In this document: positions 17,336 through 31,685 of the stretch, piece after piece
Layout: each line of letters starts with the position of its first letter
Numbering within the stretch: position 1 is the first letter of the stretch
Assembly: GCA_013140605.1 (NCBI GenBank)
Contig: JABFSL010000087.1
Location: 1 to 36,609 of the forward strand
Direction: 5' to 3'
DNA: 36,609 nucleotides
Origin: Anaerolineales bacterium
GTDB taxonomy: Bacteria; Chloroflexota; Anaerolineae; Anaerolineales; Villigracilaceae
The notes under the pieces: generated by a model
What the model saw: the letters and a program-made list of their open reading frames with translations, nothing else
Databases searched by the model: none
Told to the model about the DNA's origin: nothing
Position numbers and translations under genes: made by a program

Positions 17336-19027
17336 TTACTTCTCCAGCGCTCCGTCATCGATCCATTGCTTGACCAGTTCCAGATCGTCAGCGGAAAGAT
17401 TGAAGAAATGCTTTTCGCTTTGGATCTTGATCAACAGGCTGTTGGCCGAATCGTTCGGCACGATCACCTCTCCATCCGTGCCGCCTTTCATCAAGTCAGC
17501 ATAAGTGGTGACGATTAATCCGCCGGATGCGGCAGCTCCGTGACAGGCTCCGCATTGGGCTTTGAGAAGCTCGCCGATATTGCCATCGTAAGTTGCTGCT
17601 CCGTTTGAAGGCGCAGCAGTGGCAGGAGCAGGAGTCGGGATTTGCTCCTTCAAAATCTCACGCAGCGCGGGAGCGTCAAAACCTGCGTATGTATAAACAC
17701 TTCCGTGACAGGCGCTGTTCGAACAGAAAGAGGTGTTGGAAACGCCGCCCATATCTTCAACACTATGGCAGGCGGAACAGGTCTGGTTGATGGACTGATT
17801 GTGCAGGCTGATCCAGTTCGGGTTAAGATGTGACTCAGGTTCAACGCCGCCGCTGTTGATCTCGATATTTGTCACCAGGTCTTTTGGACCAGTCACGATC
17901 GGGATGGAATGACACAAATTACATTCAAGGCGAACCGCTTCATTTTCCGCATTTAAATGTTTTCCGTCATGACAGCGGAAACAACCGGGCGTATTGATAT
18001 GTCCGAGATTGTTTGGGTGCGTGGTTGAATCGACTTTTTGATCGTGGAATACGGTGCGGTCATAGATCGCCTGTATTTCTGTAACCGCCTTTTGTACAGC
18101 CTCGGTGTTTTGACCGTAGAAATCAGCAAAATTGGTCTTGTAATCTTCCTCAACGGCGGCGATGGCTTTGACCGCATCATCGCGTGTTTCATATTTTACG
18201 TTGAGCACTTCCACAGCCTTTGCGCGAATGGACGGAATGGCTGGGTCAATCAGTTTGCGCGAAAGGGATTGATCCACCGAGTCCGCCGGATTCTCGAAGG
18301 CGTGGGTTACACGGTTATGACAGGTGGTGCAATCGATATCCTTGAGCTGACTCCCGGCTATGGTCGCTGTATCAAAGCCAGCTTCAACATCCACATATTC
18401 CGTGAAAGTGCCATCATCGTTATAGACGCGCACATACGGTATTTCCTGATTCAAGGGGTCTGTTGCATAGTACTGAACCTTGTTCGAAATATGCCAATGG
18501 ATGCCCTTGCCGAGTCCTTCGCGTTTATCTCCGCCGCCGGTCTTCAAAATAAGGTAGGTGGTGGATTCAGTGTTGACTTCATCATCGGCAAAGTGCTTGA
18601 TGGTGCGCAGACTGTCATTGGTGAATGTTTCAGGCAGATGGCATTTTTCGCAGGTGTCACGCGCCGGGCGCAAGGCTTTGGCACGGATCGGATATTCATA
18701 AAGCGAGAAGGTCATGTAGTAAATTTCATGCAGCGCCTGTGACTTGCGCGTGAACTGCTCAATAAATGAAGCGCGGCCAACGTGGCACTCTTCGCAGGTG
18801 ACATTAGCGTGAGGAGAATCCGAATGGCTGACGCCTTGAGGCGGCATGGTATGACAGGCAGTTCCGCAGAATTCAGAAGAGTTCGTATGTTCCCATCCAT
18901 ACGTTCCACCTGCAAATATAGCGATAAAAAGAATAACCAAAACCAGGTACGGCATGATATACGTCCAACGTGAAGAGCCTGGGGCTGGTACAAAAAAATT
19001 TCCGAGCCGTTCCATTAACTTTTTCAT
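17336..19027 (-). CDS. NapC/NirT-type membrane multihaem cytochrome c (9 haem motifs) with C-terminal cytochrome domain
   Basis: The 563-residue protein has one N-terminal helix (about 23-43), then a NapC/NirT start: FCGTACHTMPPQ, in which the first site is CX3CH, and VTCEECHVGR. Further sites are CEKCH, CTTCH, CFRCH, CNLCH, CSACH, CSNSACH (CX4CH) and CGACH. That makes seven CXXCH, one CX3CH and one CX4CH. NapC/NirT proteins take electrons from quinol. The last ~75 residues form a separate monohaem domain (CGACHG...DLMKGGTDG...WIDDGALEK) that also ends the next gene upstream. A good GGAGGTG site precedes the ATG. The best functional analogue is ImcH of Geobacter (inference). Confidence 0.87.
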   Translation of the reverse strand: MKKLMERLGNFFVPAPGSSRWTYIMPYLVLVILFIAIFAGGTYGWEHTNSSEFCGTACHTMPPQGVSHSDSPHANVTCEECHVGRASFIEQFTRKSQALHEIYYMTFSLYEYPIRAKALRPARDTCEKCHLPETFTNDSLRTIKHFADDEVNTESTTYLILKTGGGDKREGLGKGIHWHISNKVQYYATDPLNQEIPYVRVYNDDGTFTEYVDVEAGFDTATIAGSQLKDIDCTTCHNRVTHAFENPADSVDQSLSRKLIDPAIPSIRAKAVEVLNVKYETRDDAVKAIAAVEEDYKTNFADFYGQNTEAVQKAVTEIQAIYDRTVFHDQKVDSTTHPNNLGHINTPGCFRCHDGKHLNAENEAVRLECNLCHSIPIVTGPKDLVTNIEINSGGVEPESHLNPNWISLHNQSINQTCSACHSVEDMGGVSNTSFCSNSACHGSVYTYAGFDAPALREILKEQIPTPAPATAAPSNGAATYDGNIGELLKAQCGACHGAAASGGLIVTTYADLMKGGTDGEVIVPNDSANSLLIKIQSEKHFFNLSADDLELVKQWIDDGALEK

Positions 19028-19044
19028 TCACACCTCCAAAAAAT

Positions 19045-19072
19045 AAGCAGATGCACAGCCGTGCATCTGCTT
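19045..19072 (-). terminator. Terminator or attenuator before the NapC/NirT-type gene
   Basis: A perfect 12-base stem AAGCAGATGCAC / GTGCATCTGCTT has a four-base loop. Read on the minus strand it is followed by ATTTTTTGG, so it has a proper U-tract. It sits 15 bases after the cytochrome b stop and directly abuts the ribosome site of the next gene, so it should limit read-through into it. Confidence 0.8.
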
Positions 19073-19088
19073 TATTATAAACCCGTGA

Positions 19089-20321
19089 TTATTTTTCCAG
19101 TGCGCCGGCATCCAACCAGGATTTGATCTGATCCAGTTCCTCAGTTGTAAGCACAGCGTACGGATGTTTCCCGCTTTCAAACTTTATGATCATTAAACTG
19201 CCGGCAGAATCTCCGGCTGTGAATACCACGCCGGAAGCGCCGCCTTTCATCGCATCTGTATAAGCGGCTAAATTCAATCCGCCGGATGCGCCATGACAGG
19301 CTGCACATTTTTGCTGGAATAAAGGTCCGACGCTTCCATCCCAGCTGACAACTGCTGTGGCCGCGTCAGGCGTTGTCGCCGCTGACGGGGTATCTGCAAC
19401 CGTTGGCGCAATTGTTGGTTCTGCTGTTGGGGTGGAGGTTGGCCGTGGAGTGGCTGTCTGCGGGACAAAGACTTCAACCTGCTGTTCTGCCAGCGGCGGA
19501 ATGGTCGTCAGTGAGGTTTCTTCAGTGTTGATAAAGCCATAGATACCGGCCAACATACCCAGGGTCAGAATTGAAGCGATGGGGAAATATATCTTCTGGC
19601 GTTTGCGGATGGTGGCTTCGTCGGGTCTGCGGTCTGCGATCCCGGCTTTAATATCGGCAAGTTCGAGCGGGTGCTCATGCAGCATTTCCTGCTCGGTCAG
19701 TTTGCCCGTCCACATTGCTTTGTTGAAAAATTTAATATGAACGCCGTACATGTGCCAGAGAATGATAGCCAGAACGGCTAGTACAGCTTCGCCGCCGTGC
19801 GCGGCTTTGGCGGCTGGAATGAATTCGCCGGGCAGGATTTTGGCCGATGTGATCGGGTTCCACATCAGGAAGCCGGTGACGGCCATGACGATCGTTCCCC
19901 ACACGAAAGCCCAGTATTCGGCTTTTTCTTCAAATGTAAAACGTCCCATTTGCGGGCGCGATTTTGCGAATCCGATATTGTAGAGCAATGCCTGGAGCGC
20001 ATCTTTCGCATCTTGAAAACCCGGCAGCATGCTCAAACGAATGCGCAGAACGTAAGCCTGGTAGCCAAAGACGACGAGGTGATACATTGTGCCGATTATA
20101 AGAACAATGGCGGCGAAATGGTGAATGCTGCGTACACTTTCAATACCGCCCAGCAAGCCAACCAAAAACTGTGAGGTGGTGCTGGTTGCAAATTTTTGGA
20201 TCAACCCGGTTAAACCAAGCGTGGTAAAGGAAAGCAGCATTGTCAAATGTTCGATTCGCCTTGCGAGCGGGAATCGTTCATAGGTGCGTTCTGTTTGCGG
20301 AGGAGTGGATTTCTTAGCCAT
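19089..20321 (-). CDS. Cytochrome b (FdnI/HydC-like) with fused C-terminal cytochrome c domain
   Basis: The 410-residue protein has four or more membrane helices of the formate-dehydrogenase-gamma/hydrogenase cytochrome b type. Histidines in helices (RRIEHLTMLL, SIHHFAAIVLIIGTMYH, IILWHMYGVHIKFF) are likely b-haem ligands. An additional helix (about 255-273) is followed by a TPRPTSTPTAEPT linker and a monohaem c domain with CAACHGASGG and SWLDAGALEK. The final domain resembles that of the NapC-type protein downstream. With the nonahaem protein upstream (one-base overlap) it forms a quinol-oxidising bc pair. The fusion of a c domain to this b type is unusual. Confidence 0.85.
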   Translation of the reverse strand: MAKKSTPPQTERTYERFPLARRIEHLTMLLSFTTLGLTGLIQKFATSTTSQFLVGLLGGIESVRSIHHFAAIVLIIGTMYHLVVFGYQAYVLRIRLSMLPGFQDAKDALQALLYNIGFAKSRPQMGRFTFEEKAEYWAFVWGTIVMAVTGFLMWNPITSAKILPGEFIPAAKAAHGGEAVLAVLAIILWHMYGVHIKFFNKAMWTGKLTEQEMLHEHPLELADIKAGIADRRPDEATIRKRQKIYFPIASILTLGMLAGIYGFINTEETSLTTIPPLAEQQVEVFVPQTATPRPTSTPTAEPTIAPTVADTPSAATTPDAATAVVSWDGSVGPLFQQKCAACHGASGGLNLAAYTDAMKGGASGVVFTAGDSAGSLMIIKFESGKHPYAVLTTEELDQIKSWLDAGALEK

Positions 20322-21487
20322 TAATGAGTTGCTCCTTTACGGCGTTCGATCCAGCGGCGTACAAAGTCTGTGACGACAAAGACAGCCATACCGCCCAACA
20401 CTGCCGGGATGAAGAATTTGTAGAAGAGGTTGACGTAATAAACTAGCGGAAAATTATCCGGGCTGGCAACGTAATGACTCATCCACGCATCCGGGAAGTT
20501 GGCAGTCGCATCCGGATGACAGCGCTGGCATTTTATGAGCAAGTTCTGTTTCAACGCTATGCCTGTTTGGAGGTTATCCACTTTTGAAATATCATGGATA
20601 CCGTGACAGTCTGTGCAAACGGGTTTGTTGGTGGGTTGGTCTGGTGAATTCTTTTCAAACAGTGTGACTGTTGTGCCGTGGAAGTCCGCAACATAGGTGT
20701 TTAGTATGTTGGTGGAAAGTCCGTAGGCGCGCATGAGCGTTCCATTGGCATGGCACTTGGCGCATAATTGCGGTGTTTCATTTCGGAACTGGGCTGTTGT
20801 GGGGTCTTGAATATTGTGGACTCCGTGACAGTCAATACAGGTTGGCACATCAAGGTTGCCTTCTTCGGTCAACGCGGCGCCGTGGACGCTGTATTTATAG
20901 GTATCATAAATTCCGCTGTGGCATTGGGCACAGGTCTGCGGAATATGTAATTTGGCGGTAACTAAAACTTCGCCTGTATCTTTATTTGTGATGCGTGTTT
21001 GTTCGTGCGGGTCGTGGCAATCGGTGCAGACGGCGGCGTTTGTTTGTCCGCCTGCCAGTGCGCGCTGATGAACACTATCAAGTGCCTTATCGTATTGTTC
21101 GGCATGACATTGCTGGCAGGTTGTGTAATAAGTGGTCGCTATCTCACGCGGGCTGGCTGCCTTGAGTTCCGGGTGTGGAAACCCGGTAAAATCTGTATGG
21201 CAGCTTGTGCAGGCAATCTCATTTTCGCCATGGACAGATTGACTGAATTTGTCTGGATTGATGGTTAAAGAGAGGTCTTCACCATTGGCCATGGTCAAAT
21301 TGAAATCCGGTCTGCTGTGGCAGGCTAGGCACACGCTATTATCCACTTGTTGCGAATTAGGCGCAGCAACCTGGTTTATATGCGGCGCGGCGCGTACCGT
21401 CTGGGATCTGGAGCCAGCTATGGCGAGCGCGACCAGCACAATTCCTGCGAGAAGCGGCAATGCTTGCGCTATTTTTAGTCGTCTCAT
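20321..21487 (-). CDS. Membrane-anchored nonahaem cytochrome c
   Basis: The 388-residue protein has an N-terminal signal sequence (LPLLAGIVLVALAIAGS) and nine CXXCH motifs: CLACH, CTSCH, CQQCH, CTDCH, CAQCH, CIDCH, CAKCH, CTDCH and CQRCH. A C-terminal anchor helix (FFIPAVLGGMAVFVVTDF) is followed by RRWIERRKG. Additional SVHG/FHG histidines probably serve as distal ligands. It overlaps the cytochrome b gene by one base (TAATG). Geobacter CbcL carries nine haems and a cytochrome b in one polypeptide, and this pair looks like a split version (inference). The ATG follows AGGAGA. Confidence 0.87.
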   Translation of the reverse strand: MRRLKIAQALPLLAGIVLVALAIAGSRSQTVRAAPHINQVAAPNSQQVDNSVCLACHSRPDFNLTMANGEDLSLTINPDKFSQSVHGENEIACTSCHTDFTGFPHPELKAASPREIATTYYTTCQQCHAEQYDKALDSVHQRALAGGQTNAAVCTDCHDPHEQTRITNKDTGEVLVTAKLHIPQTCAQCHSGIYDTYKYSVHGAALTEEGNLDVPTCIDCHGVHNIQDPTTAQFRNETPQLCAKCHANGTLMRAYGLSTNILNTYVADFHGTTVTLFEKNSPDQPTNKPVCTDCHGIHDISKVDNLQTGIALKQNLLIKCQRCHPDATANFPDAWMSHYVASPDNFPLVYYVNLFYKFFIPAVLGGMAVFVVTDFVRRWIERRKGATH

Positions 21488-21654
21488 TGAATTCTCCTGG
21501 GAACTTATTTAATAAAAAATATAACTTTGACACATATATCCAAGTGTCATGGGGCAACGACCCCAATTTTACGGGTCGTATCATGTAAACCGTAGTGTTG
21601 AATATCATTGATTTTACATGATTTATGGACAGAAGTCATCCTAATAATTAAAGA

Positions 21655-21681
21655 GATGGCGGGCGCAATGCGCCCGCCATC
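21655..21681 (-). terminator. Terminator hairpin of the hexahaem lipoprotein gene
   Basis: GATGGCGGGCGC pairs with GCGCCCGCCATC. Read on the minus strand it is followed by TCTTTAATTATT. A nearly identical hairpin follows the decahaem gene (23056-23082). The rest of the gap 21488-21714 shows no gene. Confidence 0.75.
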
Positions 21682-21714
21682 GTAGTTCTTCCCCTATTAT
21701 TTCGATGGTAGTTC

Positions 21715-22803
21715 CTACGGAGTGTATGCTTTCATCGTTTCCAATGCTGCATCAAGAAGAGCCTTGGCATACGCCGAGTTGTGAGCGCCATTACTCTGAT
21801 CGTAGGTTACGAACTTGTAGTTCCACATCGCGTTTGCGACTGCTTCGGGAACTGTCAAAGGAGCATCTGCGGAGGGATTGCTCCATTTATCGGTCGCCGC
21901 GTCATAAATACCCCATAGATTGGATGGGTTCGCCACCTCGTCCGGGTTCATTAGCTTCTTTTCGACGAAGAGGGTATGAAGTTCTTCGAGCTTCGCCTTA
22001 ACTTCGGTCTGCACGCCGTTTACGTCAAAGTCTTTAGCATCGGCATGGCAGGCTTGGCAACGCGCCACTTTAGGCAGGTAAGTATGGTTGAATTCCTCTC
22101 CCATATGGCAACCTACACAGGTATCTTGAACAGATGAGTAGTGTACGCTTGGGCTGCCAGTTGTCTCACCCAATCCGCCTTCGCCAAGCAACATCTGGGA
22201 TTCAACACCATAGTGGGTGCCAAACCGGCTGGATGCAATCGCGACGTTTCCGCCATCGACTTTGGGCTTTGCATTGCGGATCTGATGGCAGTTGGCACAC
22301 AAGTTGCCAGCGCCGCCATCGAAGGTGCCATCGGTAAACTCCATCTTCGTCGGTTGTTCAGCTCCCGTCAGCGCCCAGTCTTCACCTGTATAAGTGGTGT
22401 GGATGTTATGGCAGGTACGGCAGTTGAACGGCGAGACGTTTACCACGCCTTCAACCGACGCATCATGCGGGAGCAGGCCGGCGTTGATGCGCGCTTTGGC
22501 GCCTTCACTGCCGTGGCAGCCGGCACAGTCGGTGCCTTCGCCTCTCTCAAAAGCTTCACCTGTTCCATGCACAGAAAGTTCCTTGAACTGCGCCTGCTTT
22601 GAGACGATCAAGGTCGTGTCATTGTGGCACTCGGTGCAGGTCAGGTCAGTAGCTGACGCTGGAGCGCCAACTGCTCCAGCAGGACCGGCAGGGCCGGCGG
22701 GGCCAACAGGACCTTCAGGACCGGGCTGTCCTGCGCACGCAGTCAAGACGACAGCGGCAAGAAGAAGGAAACCAACGAGCGAAAGTACTTTTTTAAGTGA
22801 CAT
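21715..22803 (-). CDS. Hexahaem cytochrome c lipoprotein with collagen-like linker
   Basis: The 362-residue protein has signal peptide MSLKKVLSLVGFLLLAAVVL and lipobox LTAC. Immediately after the lipid-bearing cysteine come about seven Gly-X-Y triplets (GPEGPVGPAGPAGPAGAVG), a collagen-like spacer. Six CXXCH sites follow: CTECH, CAGCH, CRTCH, CANCH, CVGCH and CQACH, with further histidines (SVHG, GTHYG). The last ~90 residues are haem-free and helical. It should sit on the outer face of the membrane, with the spacer holding the haem domain away from it. It has its own upstream region, shared with the decahaem gene. Confidence 0.87.
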   Translation of the reverse strand: MSLKKVLSLVGFLLLAAVVLTACAGQPGPEGPVGPAGPAGPAGAVGAPASATDLTCTECHNDTTLIVSKQAQFKELSVHGTGEAFERGEGTDCAGCHGSEGAKARINAGLLPHDASVEGVVNVSPFNCRTCHNIHTTYTGEDWALTGAEQPTKMEFTDGTFDGGAGNLCANCHQIRNAKPKVDGGNVAIASSRFGTHYGVESQMLLGEGGLGETTGSPSVHYSSVQDTCVGCHMGEEFNHTYLPKVARCQACHADAKDFDVNGVQTEVKAKLEELHTLFVEKKLMNPDEVANPSNLWGIYDAATDKWSNPSADAPLTVPEAVANAMWNYKFVTYDQSNGAHNSAYAKALLDAALETMKAYTP

Positions 22804-22854
22804 TTCTTTACATTCTCCTTTTTTATTTGAACAGGAACGATTGTGTTCTTTTTT

Positions 22855-22974
22855 ACAACAAATCGGACAATCTTGTCCACTATTCTATGATTTTATTGCA
22901 AAGTTAGATTAAAATCCAGTTAATTTGGTTAAAATTTAAAGTGACAAATGTCACAAAAATGAGAAAGAGATTAA
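22855..22974 (-). promoter_or_regulatory. Upstream regulatory block of the hexahaem gene with CRP/FNR-like palindrome
   Basis: AGTGACAAATGTCACA at 22940-22955 is a palindrome of the TGTGA-N6-TCACA type. A TAGAAT -10-like element lies at 22887-22882 on the minus strand. The whole block aligns with 25495-25613 upstream of the decahaem gene. The operator centre is about 72 bases upstream of the predicted start in both, a spacing suited to activation. GGACAA-TC-TTGTCC (22865-22878) is a second palindrome in the leader. The remainder up to 23050 has no gene. Confidence 0.65.
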
Positions 22975-23055
22975 TAATTCAGCTTGAATGAACTATTTCA
23001 TTGAATGCCCCAGATGTAAAAAGTTAGTTCTTTATCCCCCTGTTACTATTAAAGA

Positions 23056-23082
23056 AATGGCGGGCGCATTGCGCCCGCCATT
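23056..23082 (-). terminator. Terminator hairpin of the decahaem lipoprotein gene
   Basis: AATGGCGGGCGC pairs with GCGCCCGCCATT. On the minus strand TCTTTAATAG follows. Stem and surroundings match the hairpin at 21655-21681. Confidence 0.75.
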
Positions 23083-23110
23083 GTAGTATTCCCCTTTGAA
23101 CCAAATTTAC

Positions 23111-25390
23111 TTATGGGCGAGTGTACTTGCTTATATCGCCGCCAAGATCTTCGATCGAGTCGATCTGAATCTGGATGGCATATTTCGCATTGTGTACAAA
23201 GGTGCCCGGGATCTTGCGTAGGAAGTTGAAGTTGTAGGCGGCCTTGAGCAGGCGGGGTGTCCAGGTGGTGTAAGACACGGTCTTGCCGTCTACAACATCG
23301 GCTTTATCGTCGCCATCGGCATCAACAAACCAATATGGATAAGCATTGGTGTCGTAAACAATGCCTGTGCCAACAGTTGTCTTGGCGTAAGCCTTGATCT
23401 CGGCATACAGAGCATCGCGCAGGGCACGTACTTCCATGCGAACAGGTTCTGCAACGTCACCGTTGCCGTTCCAGTCGGTGGTGTCTGAAGCGCCGCGGAT
23501 ATCATCAACGCTCTCGATTCCTGGATGGCAGGTCGCGCATTTTGCGGTGTCCCATGAACCGTTGTGAGCATCATGGCAACCAACACAGCCGGCTTTGCCG
23601 TCTACTTCAACGTGAGTGTTGACGCCAACGTAGGTCTTACCTTCGTATTCATAGAAACCTTGCGCATCAGTACCGAACCACATGGCGCCAATACCAAAGT
23701 AATGGGCGTTAATGAAGCTGAATCTGACATCCTTGCCATTGGCATCCTTGATGGATTCAACGACTGTATCCGGGGCATCAGCAGCGCCGGGGAACAAGGC
23801 AATCTTGTCATCCACTGACTTCTTGGAGGCGCGGCCCTGATGGCACTGAATACACAGGTTGGAGTCTTCGCCTTCACCGTAGCTTACGATCATGCCGGAG
23901 GGCATGGCAACTTCATTGACTGCGTAGCGGGCCGGGAAGTTGGCACCGTCATGGCAGGTCACGCACATCAAACCATTACCAGCGGGAACACCTTCTTCAG
24001 GAATTTCCTGTCCAGCGAGGAGCAGGGGCAGGCCGGAAGCGCTGTGGCACTTGGCACAAGCAGCTTCGACTACGTAGGAGGGAGAACCATCATCGTTGAG
24101 ATCCCAGTGGCGGAAGGCTTCAGCCGCGCCATTGAAGTGACCAGGATCTTCACGGGACAGGGTAGTTGCATCGAATTTGGTGGTCAGTTTTTCGCTGGCG
24201 TTGACATCTTCGATGGAGTCAACAAGCAATTCGATGATGTACTTGCCGCCGTGGGCGAACGCACCGGGATCCTTGACGGAAACCTGGTAATTGTAGGTGG
24301 CTTTGAGCAAGCGGGCGGTGAAGGAAGCGTAATTTACATTCTTACCGTCAACCTGGTCAATAACGCCATCGCCATCATCATCAACGAACCAATAGGGATT
24401 GGTGGCAGCATCGTAAACGATGCCCTTACCAGCTACTTCAGTAGCATAAGACTTGATCGAGGCATACAAGGTTTCCTGCAGGCCGGCGATTTCAAAGGCA
24501 ACGCCTTCTTCTTTGTCGCCATCGCCATCATAGTCAGAGCTCGAGGACGGTTCGCGAACATTCTTCAGATCTTCAACGCTGGTGACGCCTTCGTGGCAGT
24601 TGGCGCAAGCTTCGACTTTAACTTCGAGGCTGTGCTGATCGTGGCAGCCGACACAGGTATTGAAACCATCAACATGGGCATGTTTGCCATCATAGTTCTT
24701 GCCTTCATACTCATAACCCATCTTAACCTGTGAGCCATAGAGTGTGCCGCCTGCGGCAAAGTAATGAACATTGGGGAAGGTGAATTTTGTAGTTGTCGGT
24801 TTGCCATCTTTGTCCAAAACGGGGGCGCCAGCGGCGTCTACTGCGGGGATGGGTTCAACAACTACATCAACATCGGTCACTGCGAAATCAGTGATCTTCT
24901 TCTCAACGCTGACCTTGGACTGGCGTCCCTGGTGACAGGTCATACAGCGAGCCTCTGGGCCGAGGTTGCTGACAACTGCGCCGGACGGGAATGTGACTGA
25001 AGTCAACGCATCAGCTGCATCATTGTGGCACATAGTACAGGTGAACGGTACGTTGGGAACTGGTGCGGCCGCATCCACTTTGCCGTCGGCGATGAAATCA
25101 ACAAAGCCGGCTTCGCTGTGGCATTTTGCACAGGTGGTGGGAACTTCAGCTTCTGTATCCCAATGAACGAAAGCTTCAGCTGCGGCATCTGCGTGACCGG
25201 AAGCAGCGAAGATGGGTTCAATTGCTGCGGCTGGATCTTCTGTGGGGGCGGCTGTCGGTGCCTCGGTTGGGGCCTCTGTAGCGACTACAACAGGCGCTTC
25301 AGTAGGGGTGGCTGCGCCGCCACAGGCTGCTAAAATAACAGCTGTTGCGAGCAATAAGCCAACTAGTATGAACATTTTTTTTAGTGACAT
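23111..25390 (-). CDS. Decahaem cytochrome c lipoprotein, internal 5+5 duplication
   Basis: The 759-residue protein has signal MSLKKMFILVGLLLATAVIL, lipobox LAAC and a TEAPTEAPTAAPTED linker. Two homologous halves follow (about 65-410 and 415-759), each with five CXXCH sites in the same order: CAKCH, CTMCH/CVTCH, C(M/I)xCHQGR, CVGCH, then CANCH/CATCH. After each set come Asp/Gly-rich loops (DYDGDGD, DDDGDGVIDQVDG; DWNGNGD, DADGDDKADVVDG) that resemble calcium-binding DxDxDG loops. It is likely a surface-exposed electron conduit at the end of the chain. No terminal reductase site was seen. Confidence 0.87.
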   Translation of the reverse strand: MSLKKMFILVGLLLATAVILAACGGAATPTEAPVVVATEAPTEAPTAAPTEDPAAAIEPIFAASGHADAAAEAFVHWDTEAEVPTTCAKCHSEAGFVDFIADGKVDAAAPVPNVPFTCTMCHNDAADALTSVTFPSGAVVSNLGPEARCMTCHQGRQSKVSVEKKITDFAVTDVDVVVEPIPAVDAAGAPVLDKDGKPTTTKFTFPNVHYFAAGGTLYGSQVKMGYEYEGKNYDGKHAHVDGFNTCVGCHDQHSLEVKVEACANCHEGVTSVEDLKNVREPSSSSDYDGDGDKEEGVAFEIAGLQETLYASIKSYATEVAGKGIVYDAATNPYWFVDDDGDGVIDQVDGKNVNYASFTARLLKATYNYQVSVKDPGAFAHGGKYIIELLVDSIEDVNASEKLTTKFDATTLSREDPGHFNGAAEAFRHWDLNDDGSPSYVVEAACAKCHSASGLPLLLAGQEIPEEGVPAGNGLMCVTCHDGANFPARYAVNEVAMPSGMIVSYGEGEDSNLCIQCHQGRASKKSVDDKIALFPGAADAPDTVVESIKDANGKDVRFSFINAHYFGIGAMWFGTDAQGFYEYEGKTYVGVNTHVEVDGKAGCVGCHDAHNGSWDTAKCATCHPGIESVDDIRGASDTTDWNGNGDVAEPVRMEVRALRDALYAEIKAYAKTTVGTGIVYDTNAYPYWFVDADGDDKADVVDGKTVSYTTWTPRLLKAAYNFNFLRKIPGTFVHNAKYAIQIQIDSIEDLGGDISKYTRP

Positions 25391-25494
25391 TTCTTTACAT
25401 TCTCCTTATTAAGACTTGGGCGAACTGTAGTGGTGAGTAGTAATTTACTGATTTTTCTGGATTGCCCTCCCAGTATTCGTTGTGGATTTTTTTC

Positions 25495-25613
25495 ACAACA
25501 AATCGGACAAACCTATCCACTATTCTATGATTCTATAGTAAAGGCAGATTAATAACTAGTTAATTTAGCTCATATTTTATGTGACAAATGTCACAAGATG
25601 AGAAAGAGATTAA
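25495..25613 (-). promoter_or_regulatory. Upstream regulatory block of the decahaem gene with perfect CRP-like palindrome
   Basis: TGTGACAAATGTCACA at 25580-25595 is a perfect TGTGA-N6-TCACA operator of the Crp/Fnr superfamily. TAGAAT at 25527-25522 (minus) is the -10-like element shared with the other copy, and TACTATAGAAT offers an alternative. The leader is about 125 bases and contains GTTGTG/CACAAC arms. The gap 25614-25698 has no gene. Confidence 0.68.
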
Positions 25614-25698
25614 GAATGAGGTTTTTGTTGAAATATCTAAAAAAGCCCGCTAAAAGGTTAATATGCTTGGATTTTGTTCGTATGCACAATGCTACATG

Positions 25699-25738
25699 CA
25701 AACAAGGGAGCCATTTATTGAGATGGCTCCCTTGTTTG
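25699..25738 (-). terminator. Terminator-like hairpin after the NrfD-type gene
   Basis: A perfect 16-base stem CAAACAAGGGAGCCAT / ATGGCTCCCTTGTTTG lies 25 bases past the NrfD-type stop. The U-tract is short, so it may instead be a stabilising 3' structure. Confidence 0.7.
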
Positions 25739-25763
25739 ACAATATGTTTCTATTTGTATGGTT

Positions 25764-27026
25764 TTATGCGTTTGCAGTTTCTCTGGATGTCACGGTTACC
25801 ACTTCATGTTCTTCGCTTGTCAGGCGGTGATCCACCACCCGCAGGTATTTCACACCGAGCGAGAAGGCCAGCAGACCGTAGGCGATGATACCCGATCCTG
25901 ATGCCCATTCCACAAGAGAGGGGGTGTAGCTTGTGTAAGTGACAGTTGCCTGGCCTGGCAGATAGGAGATCACCGCAAGCTGGCCGACAATGTTTATATC
26001 GAAGCGAAAGGCTATTACGCCGCCAACGATCATCGCGAAGGCGAGCATCCGCCAGAAGGGAGATAAACGCGCGGGGCGGTAGAGCAGGATGAAGGTCGGG
26101 ATGAGCGCGCCAAAGATCAATTCGCCAAACCAGAAGTTGAAGGAGAGCGATCCTGTGGTGAGCAGATGATAAGCCTCGGTGCGTCCAGGTTCGTAGGTGT
26201 ATCTTGAAGCCAGCCAATCCCAAAAGCGGAAGTAGAGATAGCCGATCATCAAATAGCCGAGGAATTGCGCAACACGTTCGATCAGAATGTCGTTGACTTT
26301 GGCTTTGGGAGTTAATCTTCCTGAAAGCATGGAAGCAAACAAAGTCAATGCGATGCCGCCTACAATGGCTGAGAACATAAAGAGCACAGCCATTTCAGGT
26401 TTGTACAAATAAGGGCGGGCTTTGATGACGCCATACATGGCGCCCAGTGATGATTGATGCAGACTTGAAAGCCCAAGACCGATGATCGCGAGGAAGGGGG
26501 CATAATGATGCGCGCTTTCCATTTTGTGTGCGATCTTCGGAAATTTTTTACGCAGCCATTCAAGGGATGCGAAGATCGGCATGCTTTCAAATAGCAGAAC
26601 CGTCAGGTACAACATCACGCACATGGTGACTTCCCACATCAGGGAATGTGTGTTCCAGAAAACCAGCGCTTTCCAAAAACGGTCTGGACGGCCAATGTCG
26701 AGCACGAGCGCCAGCATGGCCATGGTGTATCCGATGAGACCAATGAAGGTGGCTGTGCGCGCGATTGGCGCGTAGCGCTTGAGTCCAAAGAGATACACGC
26801 CTGCACACAAACTGAATGCACCTGCGCTGACCGCAATCGAGGAAAGATCGATTGTGATCCACAAGCCCCACGGCACGAGATCTGTCAGGTTGGTGATTAC
26901 CAGTCCCTTCCAGAATACGGTGATGCCGGCAACCAGTGCGCTGAGCAGGATCACGCCCAGAAAACCAAGCCACAATCCCCAGGGTGTAAAGATGTTTTCA
27001 CGCATGAACTTTACAATGGATTTCAT
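25764..27026 (-). CDS. NrfD/HybB-like quinol-interacting membrane subunit
   Basis: The 420-residue protein has about ten membrane helices in the NrfD/PsrC/HybB pattern: FTPWGLWLGFLGVILLSAL, PWGLWITIDLSSIAVSAGAF, MLALVLDIGRPDRFW, NTHSLMWEV, SSLHQSSLGAMYG. NrfD-type subunits exchange electrons between quinone and an Fe-S partner and may move protons. The start at 27026 is preferred to the ATG at 27047 because GGAGGG lies five bases ahead and the Fe-S gene stops one base before it. It is the last gene of the five-gene operon that begins at 29320. Confidence 0.9.
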   Translation of the reverse strand: MKSIVKFMRENIFTPWGLWLGFLGVILLSALVAGITVFWKGLVITNLTDLVPWGLWITIDLSSIAVSAGAFSLCAGVYLFGLKRYAPIARTATFIGLIGYTMAMLALVLDIGRPDRFWKALVFWNTHSLMWEVTMCVMLYLTVLLFESMPIFASLEWLRKKFPKIAHKMESAHHYAPFLAIIGLGLSSLHQSSLGAMYGVIKARPYLYKPEMAVLFMFSAIVGGIALTLFASMLSGRLTPKAKVNDILIERVAQFLGYLMIGYLYFRFWDWLASRYTYEPGRTEAYHLLTTGSLSFNFWFGELIFGALIPTFILLYRPARLSPFWRMLAFAMIVGGVIAFRFDINIVGQLAVISYLPGQATVTYTSYTPSLVEWASGSGIIAYGLLAFSLGVKYLRVVDHRLTSEEHEVVTVTSRETANA

Positions 27027-27027
27027 A

Positions 27028-27810
27028 TCAGCCCTCCACCACTTCATTTACTACATCATTATCGGCTGGTAAATAATAGACGCGGCAGCCGGTGCCTAGA
27101 TTTTCGCGCAAGCGGTAAGACACGTGCTTCTTAAGGATCTGACTCACATTTGAATGTGGATCATTGAGATCGCCGAAGATGCGAGCGCCAACAGGACAAA
27201 CTACACAGCAAGCTGGTGTGGCATCCGCGTCAATACCGGGGGTCAGTCCGAGTTCGAGACCGCGATCGATTCGTTGATAGCAGAATGCGCATTTCTCCGG
27301 CACGCCGCGCGGACGTCGTTCCACTTCGGGTTCGCCCCATTCGGGCACTGCCGGGTTATTGCCATCAAAGTTTTCCCAGTTGAAGGAGCGCGCATCGTAC
27401 GGGCAAGCCACCTGACAATACCGGCAGCCGATGCATTTATCGTAATCCATCATGACAATGCCGTCATCGCGATAATAGGAAGCTCCCACAGGACATACCT
27501 CCACGCATGGGGCGTGTTCACACTGCATACAAGGCCGTGCAAGATAAACCTTTTTGCCATCGATCTCGCCGGCATCAAGGACCTTATTCCATTGAATATC
27601 CGGGTTGACATCATTGTGAGCCTGGCAGGCCAGTGTGCAATATCCGCAGCCTGTGCATTTGGATTGGTCAATGACCATGGCCCATTGGTGCTTGCCTTTG
27701 GAGCCGCCTGAAGCCTCCACATTCTGAATTGCGCGAGTCCCTGCGGCAACTGCAACGCCAACTGCTGTCAATTTCAGAAAATCGCGGCGGTTGAAATTAT
27801 TCTCAGTCAT
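27028..27810 (-). CDS. Tat-exported 4x[4Fe-4S] electron-transfer subunit (NrfC/HybA-like)
   Basis: The 260-residue protein has a Tat signal (NRRDFLKLTAVGVAVAAG). Four cysteine groups follow: CTGCGYCTLAC, CMQCEHAPCVEVCPVG, CIGCRYCQVACPY, and CAFCYQRI with CCVVCPVGARIFGD. This is the four-cluster ferredoxin fold that links NrfD-type subunits to periplasmic partners. It overlaps the octahaem gene by eight bases and precedes the NrfD gene by one base, giving a tightly coupled c / Fe-S / NrfD set. No molybdopterin catalytic subunit accompanies it. Export through Tat puts the clusters on the outer side of the membrane. Confidence 0.92.
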   Translation of the reverse strand: MTENNFNRRDFLKLTAVGVAVAAGTRAIQNVEASGGSKGKHQWAMVIDQSKCTGCGYCTLACQAHNDVNPDIQWNKVLDAGEIDGKKVYLARPCMQCEHAPCVEVCPVGASYYRDDGIVMMDYDKCIGCRYCQVACPYDARSFNWENFDGNNPAVPEWGEPEVERRPRGVPEKCAFCYQRIDRGLELGLTPGIDADATPACCVVCPVGARIFGDLNDPHSNVSQILKKHVSYRLRENLGTGCRVYYLPADNDVVNEVVEG

Positions 27811-28822
27811 GTTTCACCTCTTCTGATTTTTTCAAAGCAAGTCGATACCAGCGGTCGAGCCAGGGAGCCATCACCACGCCGCCAGCCAGACCAAACATTG
27901 CGGCTATCATGGCATACCCAAGCGGGCTGACCGGGGTGGGAGTGTTCCTGGTGGGTTCATCAGTAGTTGCTACAGGAGACGGTTCAGGGGTTGGTGTGCC
28001 ACCCAGATGTTCAATATTGATCGCGGCAGCAGCTACAGCCTGACCGGGAGCATGCATTTGATCGGTATGGCATTTATTGCAAGTATCAATGGAAGGCATG
28101 AAATTATGATCAGGAGCCTTGTGAGCCTCTCCGATATCCTCGGCGGTTAACCCCTCAGCGTTGACATCAAAACCAAGGTGGCAGTTGACACAAGTTACGT
28201 TGGCCGCCGCATGTTTGGATGTGGGGAAGTTCGTCATCGCATCCTTATGGCAGTTCGCGCACAGCGGTGATGCATCGCCAGTTTCAACTACACCTTCAGC
28301 GCCTTCGATGGTTTTCATCCCGGCGGTGTGTGCGTTATGGCAGGTTGAACAGGTCATACTGCGCTGATAATGCATACTCAGTTTCCAGTTATCAGTGGCG
28401 AAACGCGGATCGCTATGACATTTGCCGCACAGATCAGGCGACTTATCCACCGGCATATTGTCATTTGGATGGCTCGCCGGGATCGGGCTATGACATGCTT
28501 CACAAGTCACGCCTTCCGCTTTGGATGTGCCAGTCGCCGGGTCATAACCAGTTGTATGGCAAACGAGGCAGGCGCCTGGTTTGCCCTGATTGTCCCAACT
28601 TTCAGCAAAGATCGGGTCAGAAAGCGCCTGACCATGCGGCCCCAATTCCCACGTATCGTTAATTTCCTTATGACAGCCAGCACAGGTGTCATAATTCATA
28701 TTCGTTGTTGGAGGCGGTACGGTGGGAGTTCCCTCCTGAGCCTGGGCAAAGACAAGTGTGGCCGCTGCCGCCAAAAGGGCGAATACTAAAGCGATCACAA
28801 TGCGTTCGAAACGTGAGATCAT
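27803..28822 (-). CDS. Membrane-anchored octahaem cytochrome c
   Basis: The 339-residue protein has signal IVIALVFALLAAAATLVFAQA and eight CXXCH motifs: CAGCH, CLVCH, CEACH, CGKCH, CSTCH, CANCH, CVNCH and CNKCH. After a TPTPEPSPVAT linker a C-terminal anchor helix (GYAMIAAMFGLAGGVVMAPW) follows. The spacing resembles NrfB/DmsE-like multihaem electron carriers. Joined to the Fe-S and NrfD subunits, it should take electrons outward from the quinol pool. The ATG follows AGGAGA. Confidence 0.88.
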   Translation of the reverse strand: MISRFERIVIALVFALLAAAATLVFAQAQEGTPTVPPPTTNMNYDTCAGCHKEINDTWELGPHGQALSDPIFAESWDNQGKPGACLVCHTTGYDPATGTSKAEGVTCEACHSPIPASHPNDNMPVDKSPDLCGKCHSDPRFATDNWKLSMHYQRSMTCSTCHNAHTAGMKTIEGAEGVVETGDASPLCANCHKDAMTNFPTSKHAAANVTCVNCHLGFDVNAEGLTAEDIGEAHKAPDHNFMPSIDTCNKCHTDQMHAPGQAVAAAAINIEHLGGTPTPEPSPVATTDEPTRNTPTPVSPLGYAMIAAMFGLAGGVVMAPWLDRWYRLALKKSEEVKHD

Positions 28823-28846
28823 TGATCATTCTCCTTATTAAAAAAT

Positions 28847-29191
28847 TTATACGTGCGCGTGAGTCACGGGGGCAGGTACAGGCGCATCCAGGAACACTTC
28901 ACAGCTTAGGCAGGCTTCGCTCAATCGTCCGTTATGCGAACGTTGAACCTGCCAGCAAGGTTGGGCGCTTAAAGATGCGCGCAATTTCATTTGCTCAGTA
29001 GAAATACCCTGCATCTTCAAACAGGGCATTTCATCCACTACCAGCGTTTTCATTTCATTTCTGGCTTCTTCCTGCCAGCGGGCATCCAGCTTGTGAAGTC
29101 CGTAAACGACCAGGGCGGTCACAGCAATGGGCACAAGCAGGCGGAGAACCACACCAAACAGTACAGCGAGAATTGAACTAAGAGTATCCAT
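28847..29191 (-). CDS. Small membrane-anchored protein with Cys-rich tail
   Basis: The 114-residue protein has one N-terminal helix (about 8-32: LAVLFGVVLRLLVPIAV...) followed by GLHKLDARW. The helix region parallels the 40-residue protein directly upstream. The soluble part has four cysteines (MPCLKM, QPCWQV and EACLSCEVF) but no CXXCH. It may bind metal or assist assembly, but no family was recognised. GAGGA lies before the start. The gene lies 24 bases before the octahaem gene and is likely part of the operon. Confidence 0.7.
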   Translation of the reverse strand: MDTLSSILAVLFGVVLRLLVPIAVTALVVYGLHKLDARWQEEARNEMKTLVVDEMPCLKMQGISTEQMKLRASLSAQPCWQVQRSHNGRLSEACLSCEVFLDAPVPAPVTHAHV

Positions 29192-29197
29192 ATTTCC

Positions 29198-29320
29198 TCA
29201 TGATTTCAGCCAGTAATTGGCATCGTATCGGTGTAACCATTCACCAACCAGCAGAAGCAAACCAAACGGGACAACCAGACGAACCAGGAAGAGTAGTAGT
29301 ACGATTTCAGTTGCGTTCAT
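29198..29320 (-). CDS. 40-residue single-helix membrane protein, first gene of the cytochrome operon
   Basis: The reading is MNATEIVLLLFLVRLVV..., then GLLLLVGEWLHRYDANYWLKS, with AGGAGA seven bases upstream. It stops six bases before the next start. The RL-VVP...LxR-DAxxW pattern matches the beginning of the 114-residue neighbour. Its size suggests an accessory subunit or assembly factor of the membrane complex. It is supported by the ribosome site, position and similarity, not by a known family. Confidence 0.65.
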   Translation of the reverse strand: MNATEIVLLLFLVRLVVPFGLLLLVGEWLHRYDANYWLKS

Positions 29321-29348
29321 GGCAATCTCCTTTCTTTATCTTGACTAC

Positions 29349-29377
29349 ACTATAAGACTTCCTTAAAACAAAGTAAA
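29349..29377 (-). promoter_or_regulatory. Promoter of the octahaem / Fe-S / NrfD operon
   Basis: On the minus strand TTTACT (29377-29372), a 17-base spacer and TATAGT (29354-29349) predict a start near 29342, about 22 bases before the first ATG. The stretch 29378-29498 shows no gene. Confidence 0.65.
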
Positions 29378-29498
29378 TTCGGCTCACTCCCCATCTTGCC
29401 CCCATCTTGGATGAAGGACATGCGCATCTTTCCCCGCCCAAACCTGCGTACTCCGCCCCATGCCTTTCCCACGCTGATAGGTGATTCACCCCATTAAA

Positions 29499-29526
29499 TA
29501 AAAAACTCCCGTCTTTCGACAGGAGT
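29499..29526 (-). terminator. Intrinsic terminator of the two-component operon
   Basis: On the minus strand ACTCCTGTC-GAAA-GACGGGAGT is followed by TTTTT and an AT-rich tail. It follows the response-regulator stop by 23 bases and separates this operon from the cytochrome operon downstream. Confidence 0.9.
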
Positions 29527-29548
29527 CACTTGCGATTTTCGTTTTGCC

Positions 29549-30199
29549 TTACGCCTTGATGATCCCCTTGCGGATCGCGTAGCGCACCAATTCGGCCCGC
29601 GAATGCAGATTCAACTTCCGCATAATATTCTCGCGGTGACGTTCCACCGTCTTCGGGCTGATCACCAACGCCGAAGCGATCCCATCATTGCTTGAACCCT
29701 CTGCCAGATGCGTCAACACTTCATGCTCGCGGTCGGTTAATCCATCCAGATTCGGTTTTTCCTCAGATGGGCGTTCCGTGTTCAAAAAATCACGCACCAA
29801 AAATTTTGCCAGGGATGGATATAAATACACCTCGCCAATGGCCGCGGCATTGATGGCGGTGATCAATTCATCGGGAGCGGCGCGTTTGGGAACATACCCC
29901 GATGCGCCCGCATTCAACATTTGAAAGAAATATTCCTCATCCTCGTGAATGGTCAACGCCACGATCTTCACATCAGGAAACCTCGCCTTGATCTCACGCG
30001 TGGCTTCGATACCCGTTTTATCGGGCAGACCAATATCCATCAAAATGACGGTGGGATGTGTGCGTTCCGCCTCCTGCAAGGCCTCGGCGGCGGATGCTGC
30101 CTCCCCAACGATCTCCATCCCCTTCTGGCTGCCCAAAAGCATTTTCAACCCGGAGCGTACAACGGCGTGATCATCCACCAGCAGTAATCGTATTGTCAT
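29549..30199 (-). CDS. NarL/LuxR-type response regulator
   Basis: The 216-residue protein has an N-terminal receiver domain (LLLVDDHAVVRSGL, phospho-acceptor Asp in LMDIGLPD, ALTIHEDEEYF, switch lysine in YVPKRA). A C-terminal LuxR-type helix-turn-helix follows (LTDREHEVLTHLAEG, VISPKTVERHRENIMRKL). It begins immediately after the kinase stop codon. NarL-type regulators often control respiratory genes. Its position next to the cytochrome operons makes these plausible targets, but no binding site could be assigned with confidence. Confidence 0.93.
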   Translation of the reverse strand: MTIRLLLVDDHAVVRSGLKMLLGSQKGMEIVGEAASAAEALQEAERTHPTVILMDIGLPDKTGIEATREIKARFPDVKIVALTIHEDEEYFFQMLNAGASGYVPKRAAPDELITAINAAAIGEVYLYPSLAKFLVRDFLNTERPSEEKPNLDGLTDREHEVLTHLAEGSSNDGIASALVISPKTVERHRENIMRKLNLHSRAELVRYAIRKGIIKA

Positions 30200-31666
30200 T
30201 TAAACCTCTTTCTCCACCGCATCATACGGTATCACCGCTTCCACTTCGGTGCCGTAATTTGGGCGCGAGTGAAATTCTACAGTCCCACCCAAAAGTGCGG
30301 CGCGTTCTGCCATGCCTGACAGCCCGAGTGATATTCTTCCAACGCGGTTCTGGACGGCATCCATGTCAAACCCCACCCCGTTGTCACGCACCAGAATTTT
30401 CGCTGATTTTTCCGTGTAATCCAATTTAATAGTCACAACACTGGCGCGTGAATGTTTGATAATGTTATTCAACGCTTCTTGAATGATGCGAAAGATGGCG
30501 ATCTTGACGGCTTCATCCAGTTTGTGCTCTTCGCCGAAGATGTCCACTTTGATGCTCAGGCGGGTCATCTCTTGCAGACGGTTGGTGTACCATCTCAAAG
30601 TGGCAGACAAACCCAGATCGTCGAGGTGCGCAGGCCGCAGGTCAGAAATGATGCGTTGTAATTCTCCAAGCGAATCTGATGTGAGGGACTGTAATTGTCC
30701 AAGAGTATCGCGCTGCGTTTTATTGCGCGGACTGATCTCATCCGCAAGTCCGCGCAAGCCCATACCGATGGCGGTCAGCGATTGACCGGTTTCATCATGC
30801 AGATCGCGCGCGATGCGCTGACGTTCCGATTCCTGCGCGGCGACGATCCGCCTGAATAATTCTCCGCGCAGTTCTTCGCGCTGACGCGACTCATGCAAAC
30901 GCGCTTCCTGTAATTCAGCGATCTTGTGGTCGCTTTCCACTTGAAATGCGCGCAGAAAACGGATGACAAATACCGAAGCGAAGATCGCCGTAATCGCGCG
31001 CAATAATTGAACGGGAAAACCAAATGTGGAGAGAAAAAATTCCGAGTTGAGGAAGTTGGATGGCGGTAACAGACTCGGCGTGGTAAATATCTGGCCTACA
31101 AGGCTGTACCAGCCGAATGATACAGATGCCCACAGACTATCGCGCCCAAAGCTGACCAATCCCGCATGGCGGAAGGCGCGCTGCTGGACGATCAGCCCGG
31201 CCGCCGCCAGCAGACCCGCAGGAATGGCAAGCGCATAACGCGTCCAAACATCGGAGATCACAAGAAGGTCTTCCTGCAAATATCTTCCCTTGAAAGCGAC
31301 CAGTCCGAACACCCATACTGCTTCGAGCACAAGCGGGATGATGAGACTTACCCGCCATGTGGATTCGCTTCCAAGTACGAGGTAGGAACCAAATGCGGCT
31401 AGTGATAAAAACGAGAAGGCGAGTATGCTAAATTCGATCACAGACAGCCAGGCTGGTTCTGTACTGCCATTAAACCCCGCTACGATTTCGAACATTTCAA
31501 GCCACTCGTGCGCGGCATGGACGAGACCAAACCCCGCCAGCGGACGCAGCGCCATGCGCAAACGCGCATCTGTGGAGCGGCCGCCTTCCATTGCCACCAA
31601 CAGGCCCATGCTGAAAAATGCTAGGCCGTAAAAAAAGTAGATGGCAACCAAAGGCGACATGTTCAT
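30200..31666 (-). CDS. Membrane sensor histidine kinase, NarX/DegS-type (HisKA_3)
   Basis: The protein of about 488 residues has seven predicted N-terminal helices (from LVAIYFFYGLAFFSMGLLVA to ITAIFASVFVIRFLRAF), then a coiled-coil linker and a HisKA_3 domain with QRIARDLHDETGQSLTAIG (phospho-accepting His). An ATPase domain follows (N box EALNNIIKHS; VRDNGVGFD). The frame is open to 31804, but that part overlaps the preceding gene, so the start is placed at 31666 (or 31660), with a weak ribosome site. The 7-helix sensor has no recognised ligand. It is paired with the regulator that follows without a gap. Confidence 0.88.
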   Translation of the reverse strand: MNMSPLVAIYFFYGLAFFSMGLLVAMEGGRSTDARLRMALRPLAGFGLVHAAHEWLEMFEIVAGFNGSTEPAWLSVIEFSILAFSFLSLAAFGSYLVLGSESTWRVSLIIPLVLEAVWVFGLVAFKGRYLQEDLLVISDVWTRYALAIPAGLLAAAGLIVQQRAFRHAGLVSFGRDSLWASVSFGWYSLVGQIFTTPSLLPPSNFLNSEFFLSTFGFPVQLLRAITAIFASVFVIRFLRAFQVESDHKIAELQEARLHESRQREELRGELFRRIVAAQESERQRIARDLHDETGQSLTAIGMGLRGLADEISPRNKTQRDTLGQLQSLTSDSLGELQRIISDLRPAHLDDLGLSATLRWYTNRLQEMTRLSIKVDIFGEEHKLDEAVKIAIFRIIQEALNNIIKHSRASVVTIKLDYTEKSAKILVRDNGVGFDMDAVQNRVGRISLGLSGMAERAALLGGTVEFHSRPNYGTEVEAVIPYDAVEKEV

Positions 31667-31685
31667 ATTTATGTTTAAAATATTC

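Follow-up and report, generated by a model that had tools for sequence, protein, structure and literature searches.

We analysed a 36,609-nucleotide stretch of DNA (the window), which is the entire contig JABFSL010000087.1 (C86) of an Anaerolineales bacterium (Chloroflexota; assembly GCA_013140605.1), whose genome assembly comprises 3.93 Mb in 132 contigs. Positions 17336–29320 encode six proteins with c-haem motifs (A, B, C, D, E and H), an iron-sulphur protein (G) and an NrfD-type membrane subunit (F). The best reading of this cluster, to which we assign a probability of about 0.6, is that it serves electron export in a monoderm, from quinol to surface lipoproteins. Electron export is the best supported reading because ImcH-type and CbcL-like quinol oxidases adjoin lipoproteins with an OcwA-like predicted fold. 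The parts are related to those of known electron exporters but are put together in a new way.

All of the genes concerned (17336–31804) are located on the minus strand. Counted in the translated open reading frames (ORFs), the c-haem motifs number 9 in A, 1 in B, 9 in C, 6 in D, 10 in E and 8 in H, exactly as given in a preliminary description of this DNA, and the total of 43 consists of 41 CXXCH, one CX3CH and one CX4CH; b-type haems are expected in B in addition. The rest of the window contains just two CXXCH in all six frames, so the motif density of the cluster is far above chance. The same description had listed a cytochrome b, a four-cluster Fe-S protein exported by the twin-arginine translocation (Tat) pathway and an NrfD subunit, all of which we recovered above family cut-offs (B, G and F, below). 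It had also named the two largest soluble parts as lipoproteins, in agreement with the lipoboxes of D (LTAC) and E (LAAC), and had seen no NrfA-type CXXCK; our motif scan of the translated ORFs likewise found none in A, B, C, D, E or H. Two small membrane ORFs, a response regulator with a histidine kinase, and CRP-type boxes before E and D were not mentioned there.

E (23111–25390) is a decahaem lipoprotein that consists of a tandemly duplicated pentahaem unit. Its two halves align with a score of 665, compared with at most 59 in 100 shuffles, and with an hhalign probability of 100. An alignment of 56 sequences (the window E and 55 of 77 full-length E ORFs) has ten CXXCH in every row, ten conserved His outside the motifs (nine in 56/56 and one in 51/56) and a lipobox in 50/56. 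The linker is rich in Pro, Thr and Ala, with low model confidence at residues 24–37, and the Pfam matches of E are to generic c7/c3 models. D (21715–22803) is a six-haem lipoprotein that matches one E repeat (about 25% identity, tblastn E-values down to 3e-13) and resembles one unit plus a haem. Its lipid-anchor Cys is followed by a collagen-like GPx stretch, which is common to its two close homologues (L130 and L065). D matches PF22113 (MtrC/MtrF domain II/IV) with 45.6 bits (cut-off 30). E is not listed for PF22113 and does not reach it, and E was therefore rejected as a homologue of MtrC or OmcA. Near-identical GC-rich palindromes lie 3' of D and E (at about 21655–21682 and 23057–23081), so D and E may be transcribed separately, each as a unit of its own.

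Structural models of both proteins rank known surface cytochromes of Gram-positive bacteria first, level with NrfA or slightly ahead of it, in line with the surface location proposed in the preliminary description. For the E model (predicted local distance difference test, pLDDT, 91.2; predicted template modelling score, pTM, 0.85), Foldseek placed PDB 6QVM first and OcwA second and third, followed by NrfA entries. VIA gave Z 11.0 for OcwA (226 residues, 5.4 Å), 10.3 for 6QVM (221 residues, 3.7 Å), 10.0 to 8.0 for NrfA-type entries including octahaem nitrite reductases, and 7.6 and 7.5 for MccA, with the next match at 4.1. The D model matched OcwA first by both Foldseek (E 0.019) and VIA (Z 13.2, 216 residues, 3.4 Å, 24% identity), followed in VIA by 6QVM (12.6) and NrfA (11.4). 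The alignment used to model D contained E units, so these two results are not independent. Neither MtrC nor OmcA nor UndA appeared in the list of fold matches, although such an absence excludes nothing. At the sequence level, a profile of E gave no credible E-value for any PDB sequence (best 0.34), neither the E profile nor D matched OcwA at E up to 1, and hhalign comparisons of E units with NrfA were weak, with probabilities of 63.9 (in an untrusted register) and 28.8. We read the models as placing E and D in the NrfA/OcwA superfold, with two surface cytochromes as their nearest solved relatives.

The first of these, OcwA of Thermincola potens (PDB 6I5B), is described as a surface terminal reductase with nine haems in c554-like and NrfA-like parts (PMC6703420). 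It is the top or near-top fold match of D and E, with an NrfA-like pentahaem core, and is located on the cell surface of a monoderm, a location that the lipoboxes and tethers may indicate for D and E. The differences are that OcwA has nine haems, whereas in E a lipid anchor carries two pentahaem units in tandem, and in D a collagen-like tether carries one unit plus a haem; neither matches OcwA at the sequence level. The second, 6QVM, is an undecahaem S-layer cytochrome of the monoderm Fe(III) reducer Carboxydothermus ferrireducens, likewise a surface protein, with eleven haems compared with ten in E and six in D; it is probably the OmhA described in PMC7829351.

Because the best NrfA follows OcwA closely in Z, the fold indicates the NrfA/OcwA superfold and not function. 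E and D could be imagined to reduce a soluble compound (nitrite, hydroxylamine, tetrathionate or another sulphur oxyanion) at a five-coordinate haem of the NrfA/OcwA/MccA superfold, which is rich in such enzymes. One conserved His in the second unit of E aligns weakly (the hhalign probability of 28.8) with a region of NrfA that we take to hold its catalytic His. The His counts would allow bis-His ligation of all E haems, but we do not claim it, since one His per unit may match the NrfA catalytic His in this weak alignment. OcwA itself is described as having two open haems, as reducing nitrite slowly and as reducing hydroxylamine (PMC6703420). Set against this, CXXCK is absent, and for each haem of E there is a conserved His outside the motifs, enough for all of them to be ligated. 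After the third haem motif NrfA has VEYYF, with a Tyr whose role we take as given, where E has CHQGR, the two being paired by motif order. We consider reduction of a soluble compound by E and D to be quite unlikely.

On the quinol side of the proposed export, A (17336–19027) contains a NapC/NirT domain (PF03264, 41.5 bits, cut-off 24.1) and matches NrfH (2j7a) at 2.2e-8 in a phmmer search of the PDB. Its nine motifs are seven CXXCH, CGTACH (CX3CH) at residue 54 and CSNSACH (CX4CH) at residue 435, and it ends in a PSCyt1-like monohaem domain. ImcH homologues are reported to have an atypical CX3CH by the membrane anchor and 5–9 further CXXCH, and a one-helix homologue is listed from Anaerolinea thermophila (PMC6295460). 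By sequence, A has these hallmarks: the NapC/NirT domain, a CX3CH by the anchor, seven further CXXCH and an N-terminal anchor. The CX3CH is found within the first 140 residues, near the membrane anchor, in 38/38 homologues of A. Hydropathy predicts one N-terminal membrane helix, which corresponds to the one-helix form of ImcH and not the common three-helix form. A shares with ImcH of Geobacter the domain, the CX3CH beside the anchor and seven CXXCH, and differs from it in having one helix where ImcH has three, an extra CX4CH and the C-terminal monohaem domain. ImcH and CbcL are both described as quinol oxidases of extracellular electron transfer (PMC6295460).

A second presumed quinol oxidase is formed by C and B. 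C (20321–21487) is a nine-haem cytochrome with a signal sequence and a C-terminal membrane helix, and reaches no NCBIfam family above cut-off. B (19089–20321) is a cytochrome b of the FdnI/HydC type (Ni_hydr_CYTB, PF01292, 47.2 bits, cut-off 30.1) with a C-terminal PSCyt1-like monohaem c domain; its best NCBIfam match, formate dehydrogenase gamma, is below that family's cut-off. B lies directly downstream of C in 38 cases, compared with 47 homologues of C found. The nine c-haem domain of CbcL, whose nine haems are all reported to be bis-His (PMC9129911), has its counterpart in C, and the FdnI/HydC-like cytochrome b in B. CbcL of Geobacter is a single polypeptide, whereas C and B are encoded by separate genes and B carries an extra c-haem. 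C and B together resemble a split CbcL, a Geobacter module that the preliminary description had named for comparison, and would work like CbcL, although we do not file them as CbcL.

The third module, H-G-F, is of the NrfD type. F (25764–27047) matches NrfD (PF03916) with 107 bits (cut-off 25.8). Its best NCBIfam match is QrcD, at 204.6 bits below a cut-off of 570, and it is far under the QrcD and NrfD cut-offs of that collection; its DsrP score is 54.2 bits against 350, and phmmer found no match to F in the PDB at E up to 0.01. G (27028–27810), of the DsrO/QrcC/NrfC type, matches 4Fe-4S dicluster models and carries a Tat signal (23.0 bits, cut-off 22.7). It scores 205.5 bits for DsrO, just over the cut-off of 200, and 179.9 of the 400 bits required for QrcC. 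Its 18 Cys include 16 that fit four groups of four, as needed for the four clusters attributed to it earlier. H (27803–28822) is an octahaem cytochrome c with a C-terminal membrane helix, for which a doubled CXXCH domain is the sole NCBIfam family above cut-off. The module shares with Qrc, Nrf (NrfBCD) and DsrMKJOP its multihaem c, 4Fe-4S and NrfD-type subunits (a make-up that we partly presume for these complexes), and G would pass as the DsrO subunit. It differs from them in having an octahaem H, in the scores of F, which fall far short of QrcD and NrfD, and in the lack of an adjoining catalytic or molybdopterin-like subunit. As noted before, three different types of quinol-oxidising module thus adjoin one another: H-G-F (NrfD), C-B (CbcL-like) and A (ImcH-like).

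Omp85 was not found in the genome by a search that was positive in 7/14 control genomes. The envelope therefore fits a monoderm, and the lipoproteins would then face outward across the wall. From these parts we infer export and its direction, the oxidation of quinol and the kind of quinone, the order of transfer, the surface exposure of E and D, their acceptor, and the regulation discussed below. Two adjoining respiratory modules would carry electrons from menaquinol to the cell's outer face, with H-G-F (NrfD type), C-B (split CbcL type) and A (ImcH type) as entry points. Each entry module would oxidise membrane quinol and deliver electrons to its own c-haem domain outside. The c-haem domains would pass them to the lipid-anchored OcwA-fold cytochromes E and D, which may reduce an extracellular acceptor such as a mineral, a humic substance, a partner cell or larger cytochromes.

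The modules could also be pictured as working inward, taking electrons from Fe(II), a cathode or a partner into the quinone pool. Homologues of CbcL/MtrH are reported in both Fe(III) reducers and Fe(II) oxidisers, whereas homologues of ImcH are reported just in Fe(III) reducers (PMC6295460). Ardenticatena maritima, an isolate of the Chloroflexota, is described as capable of both anodic and cathodic transfer, with a seven-haem surface candidate (PMC5808234). Within the present genome, Cox1 and an ACIII-like operon are compatible with inward flow, while the CRP-type boxes and the link to NrfHA described below probably fit anaerobic respiration better. We regard inward transfer as very improbable.

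The preliminary description had treated the region as one 43-haem cluster, which does not hold across relatives. We searched 101 genomes and mapped 20 stretches, in which neighbouring genes can be masked by the overlap rule of the mapping. F had matches (E <= 1e-30) in 64/101 genomes and E had matches (E <= 1e-20) in 50/101. In stretches from G016, G019, G022 and G058 the F module is present together with H and/or G, the kinase and the regulator, but A, B, C and E are all absent, and these four genomes had no E match listed in the genome search. Conversely, G009, G040, G046 and G038 have E with A and/or C-B and no F orthologue, just distant F paralogues. Where both modules are present (e.g., G026, G029 and G032) they are convergent neighbours, whereas in the window one strand encodes both. 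The NrfD module next to E and A in G048 and G056 is a different one (F 38% and G 52–53% identical). One indivisible 43-haem machine was therefore rejected: since each half, H-G-F and A/B/C/E, occurs without the other in some relatives, the cluster is not one fixed unit.

To describe the surroundings of E, 80 loci were kept of 477 relatives of E from one scan of named genomes. By title they belong to Chloroflexota lineages, mostly Anaerolineae, and nearly all are metagenome-assembled genomes; one is from an isolate, Thermanaerothrix daxensis GNS-1 (L163), in which C and B accompany E. Neighbours were counted in the 53 loci with at least 5 kb downstream and 1 kb upstream, the other 27 having no such flank or no called E gene. 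Within 6 kb of E, 45 of these loci had at least one of A, B, C, F and G: A was found in 24, C or B in 30, and G or F in 24. Four loci (L127, L140, L158 and L159) have, near E, a cytochrome b/c fusion that carries seven haem motifs. These counts indicate that several kinds of presumed quinol oxidase can accompany the same decahaem protein. Larger proteins also occur beside E: a 14-motif C-like protein and a 10-motif protein in L123:13921-18360, and A-like proteins with 17 motifs (L133:12247-14343) and 14 motifs (L152:7397-9652).

The absence of a terminal reductase, noted in the preliminary description, is true of the window. Elsewhere the genome encodes NrfHA on contig C111, Cox1 on C53 and an operon on C132 that we read as ACIII-like. 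Loci were searched by tblastn with the genome's own NrfA, NrfH, Cox1 and six molybdopterin-family proteins. Because the queries were just this genome's own enzymes, other reductase types would be missed, a gap that a Pfam check of nine neighbouring multihaem proteins fills in part. Among the 80 E loci these queries matched a single place, a NuoEF/NuoG-like stretch of L147 that was hit by NuoG and a NuoF-like protein; over 100 loci (the 20 mapped stretches and the 80 E loci) the only other match was in L070, an F-paralogue locus and not an E locus. CXXCK is absent from every multihaem ORF in the 100 loci examined.

The upstream regions may connect the lipoproteins with one of these reductases. 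A CRP/FNR-type box (TGTGACATTTGTCACA) lies before E at 25580–25595, and a box with one mismatch lies before D at 22940–22955. A pattern scan of the genome with TGTGAYNNNNRTCACA gave three sites and none in the reversed control: the site before E, a second that begins 74 bases ahead of nrfH, and a third within an ORF on C39. With up to one mismatch, the box precedes E in 25 of 72 relatives (72 of 77 E ORFs were used), 11 of them perfect, compared with a mean of 0.55 and a maximum of 2 in 20 shuffles. It precedes nrfH in 17/20 (20 of 21 nrf loci, one being cut by a contig end), 13 of them perfect, compared with a mean of 0.22 and a maximum of 2 in 50 shuffles. About two thirds of E loci have no box. 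The scanned lengths differ (410 bases at E, 221 at nrfH and 311 at control genes), and the counts are not independent events because the loci are related. Control genes rarely had a box (A 1/37, B 0/39, G 1/24, H 0/13, F 0/24, response regulator 0/18 and histidine kinase 1/11), and C showed a small excess (4/46, compared with 0.2 and a maximum of 1 by shuffling). Another palindrome lies between the promoters of D and E (GGACAAnnTTGTCC); at up to one mismatch it was found upstream of E in none of the E loci. A CRP-family gene lies beside nrfHA here and in 13/20 relatives. Since the box precedes E, D and nrfHA, surface cytochromes and nitrite ammonification may share a regulator; E, D and nrfHA probably answer the same CRP-type regulator, and the surface cytochromes may be connected with nitrite metabolism.

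This raises the alternative that the cluster serves nitrite ammonification, with H-G-F as an NrfBCD-like quinol dehydrogenase and with E and D as electron stores, relays for NrfHA, or guards against nitrite or NO. NrfHA is present on C111, two of the three perfect boxes in the genome stand before E and nrfH, and presence lists compiled by hand for the 57 genomes of the genus and for all 101 genomes, uncorrected for kinship and, apart from one subset, for completeness, link the modules with NrfA and favour this alternative to some degree. Within the genus, NrfA occurs in 21/24 genomes with an F orthologue and in 17/33 without (p 0.005), and in 35/43 with an F orthologue or a paralogous module and in 3/14 without (p 9e-5); over all 101 genomes it occurs in 33/50 with E and 16/51 without (p 0.0007). 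In the 38 genomes that are at least 90% complete, NrfA accompanies F orthologues in 16/17 cases, compared with 11/21 without (p 0.01). The association of NrfA with E is not clear in the genus (27/37 with E and 11/20 without, p 0.24), nor in this more complete subset (20/26 and 7/12, p 0.27). NrfH adjoins NrfA in this genome and, in an ORF scan of all frames, in 19 of 20 relatives, the twentieth stopping at a contig edge. NrfA should therefore not need H-G-F, and we rejected the idea that it depends on this module for lack of NrfH. The box is also absent before H (0/13) and F (0/24), and no relative of NrfA or NrfH was found in the 80 E loci. On balance a role of the cluster in nitrite ammonification seems unlikely.

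Several of these results nevertheless weigh against electron export to the surface. The three significant associations with NrfA just given are among them, and the box that E has in common with nrfHA is as suggestive of a nitrogen-oxide or anaerobiosis programme as it is of minerals. Two of the 80 loci, L107 and L128, have an octahaem protein of PF11783, which we take to be the octahaem tetrathionate reductase family, at 0.5 and 3 kb from E, respectively; these proteins also count towards the reduction of a soluble compound, and they partly match a reductase near the cluster in relatives, which the preliminary description had named as a finding that would speak against it. Eight of the 53 E loci have none of the three modules within 6 kb. 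One of the eight is L108, and in the corresponding genome (G052, L077) A and C lie at a distance of about 10 kb from E. As for the folds, no Foldseek match of the E model falls below E 0.001, the D model is poor (pLDDT 64.3), and the best NrfA is below OcwA by only 1.0 Z for E and 1.8 Z for D. Of the architecture first proposed, a monoderm ending in surface lipoproteins, the monoderm look, the lipoboxes and the OcwA-ranked folds stand; the single fixed cluster does not, and a tie to nitrite metabolism is possible.

Anaerolineae are found in sludge, sediment and groundwater, as many record titles among the E loci indicate, and their respiration without oxygen is poorly known. Anaerolineales are described as rich in multihaem cytochromes without porin complexes, with a largest cytochrome of varying haem number, and the idea that they export electrons is already in print in general form (PMC7399161). 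nrfA and nrfD are reported in Anaerolineae of a ferruginous lake in a paper whose text lacks the terms multiheme and extracellular electron (PMC11650866). No description of the E family was found in the PMC literature, a scope that covers neither subscription papers nor figures. If E is a surface terminal reductase, its 477 relatives would point to a widespread single-membrane export route built on the NrfA/OcwA fold and not on porin-cytochrome complexes. The claim of electron export can be tested because the E gene is present in the genome of the isolate T. daxensis GNS-1. The shared CRP-type box would tie the surface cytochromes to nitrite ammonification, a link of which gene order gives no hint. 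A wider scheme may tentatively be drawn for monoderm export in Chloroflexota, and we hold it as possible without thinking it probable: a duplicated OcwA-fold decahaem lipoprotein as hub, interchangeable oxidases of the ImcH, split CbcL and NrfD types, one small CRP-type regulon together with nitrite ammonification, and in some genomes cytochromes with 75–105 haem motifs.

Upstream of H lie two small ORFs and a two-component system. I (28847–29191) encodes a 114-amino-acid protein with one membrane helix by hydropathy and no Pfam or NCBIfam match, and is conserved before H in some relatives. J (29198–29320) encodes a 40-amino-acid membrane peptide that heads the H-G-F operon and has a homologue in L130. 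By eye, I and J share a run like RLxVPxxxxxLxxxxLHxxDA and look like paralogues. Further upstream are genes for a response regulator of the LuxR/NarL type (29549–30199; PF00072 and PF00196) and its paired HisKA_3 histidine kinase (30200–31804; PF07730). In 8/20 mapped stretches the regulator gene (69–89% identical) immediately precedes H/G/F and has the same orientation, and the kinase is found in 8/20 (64–86% identical), ahead of the module in seven of these. H-G-F probably answers this adjoining two-component system.

The PF11783 proteins mentioned above (L107:12664-14106 and L128:15162-16589) are each followed by a seven-haem protein; that in L107 is fused to a cytochrome b, and a seven-haem ORF of similar size follows in L128.

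Further large cytochromes are encoded elsewhere in the genome. Just downstream of the ACIII-like operon, a 1917-amino-acid ORF with 81 CXXCH (G000:C132:13894-19647; L203, L217) contains no exact repeat of at least 50 bases and is therefore not an obvious assembly artefact. Its relatives have 105 motifs in 2486 amino acids (G008, L253), 75 motifs in G016 (L254) and 78 in a partial ORF of G019 (L255). A 2266-amino-acid protein with an apparent subtilisin-like protease region, repeat domains and 15 C-terminal CXXCH (G000:C4:15688-22488; L216:3689-10489) belongs to a second multihaem cluster, which also contains relatives of H, C and A. By this second cluster lies a histidine-kinase relative with two CXXCH (G000:C4:31518-32969; L206:11518-12969), possibly a haem-based sensor.

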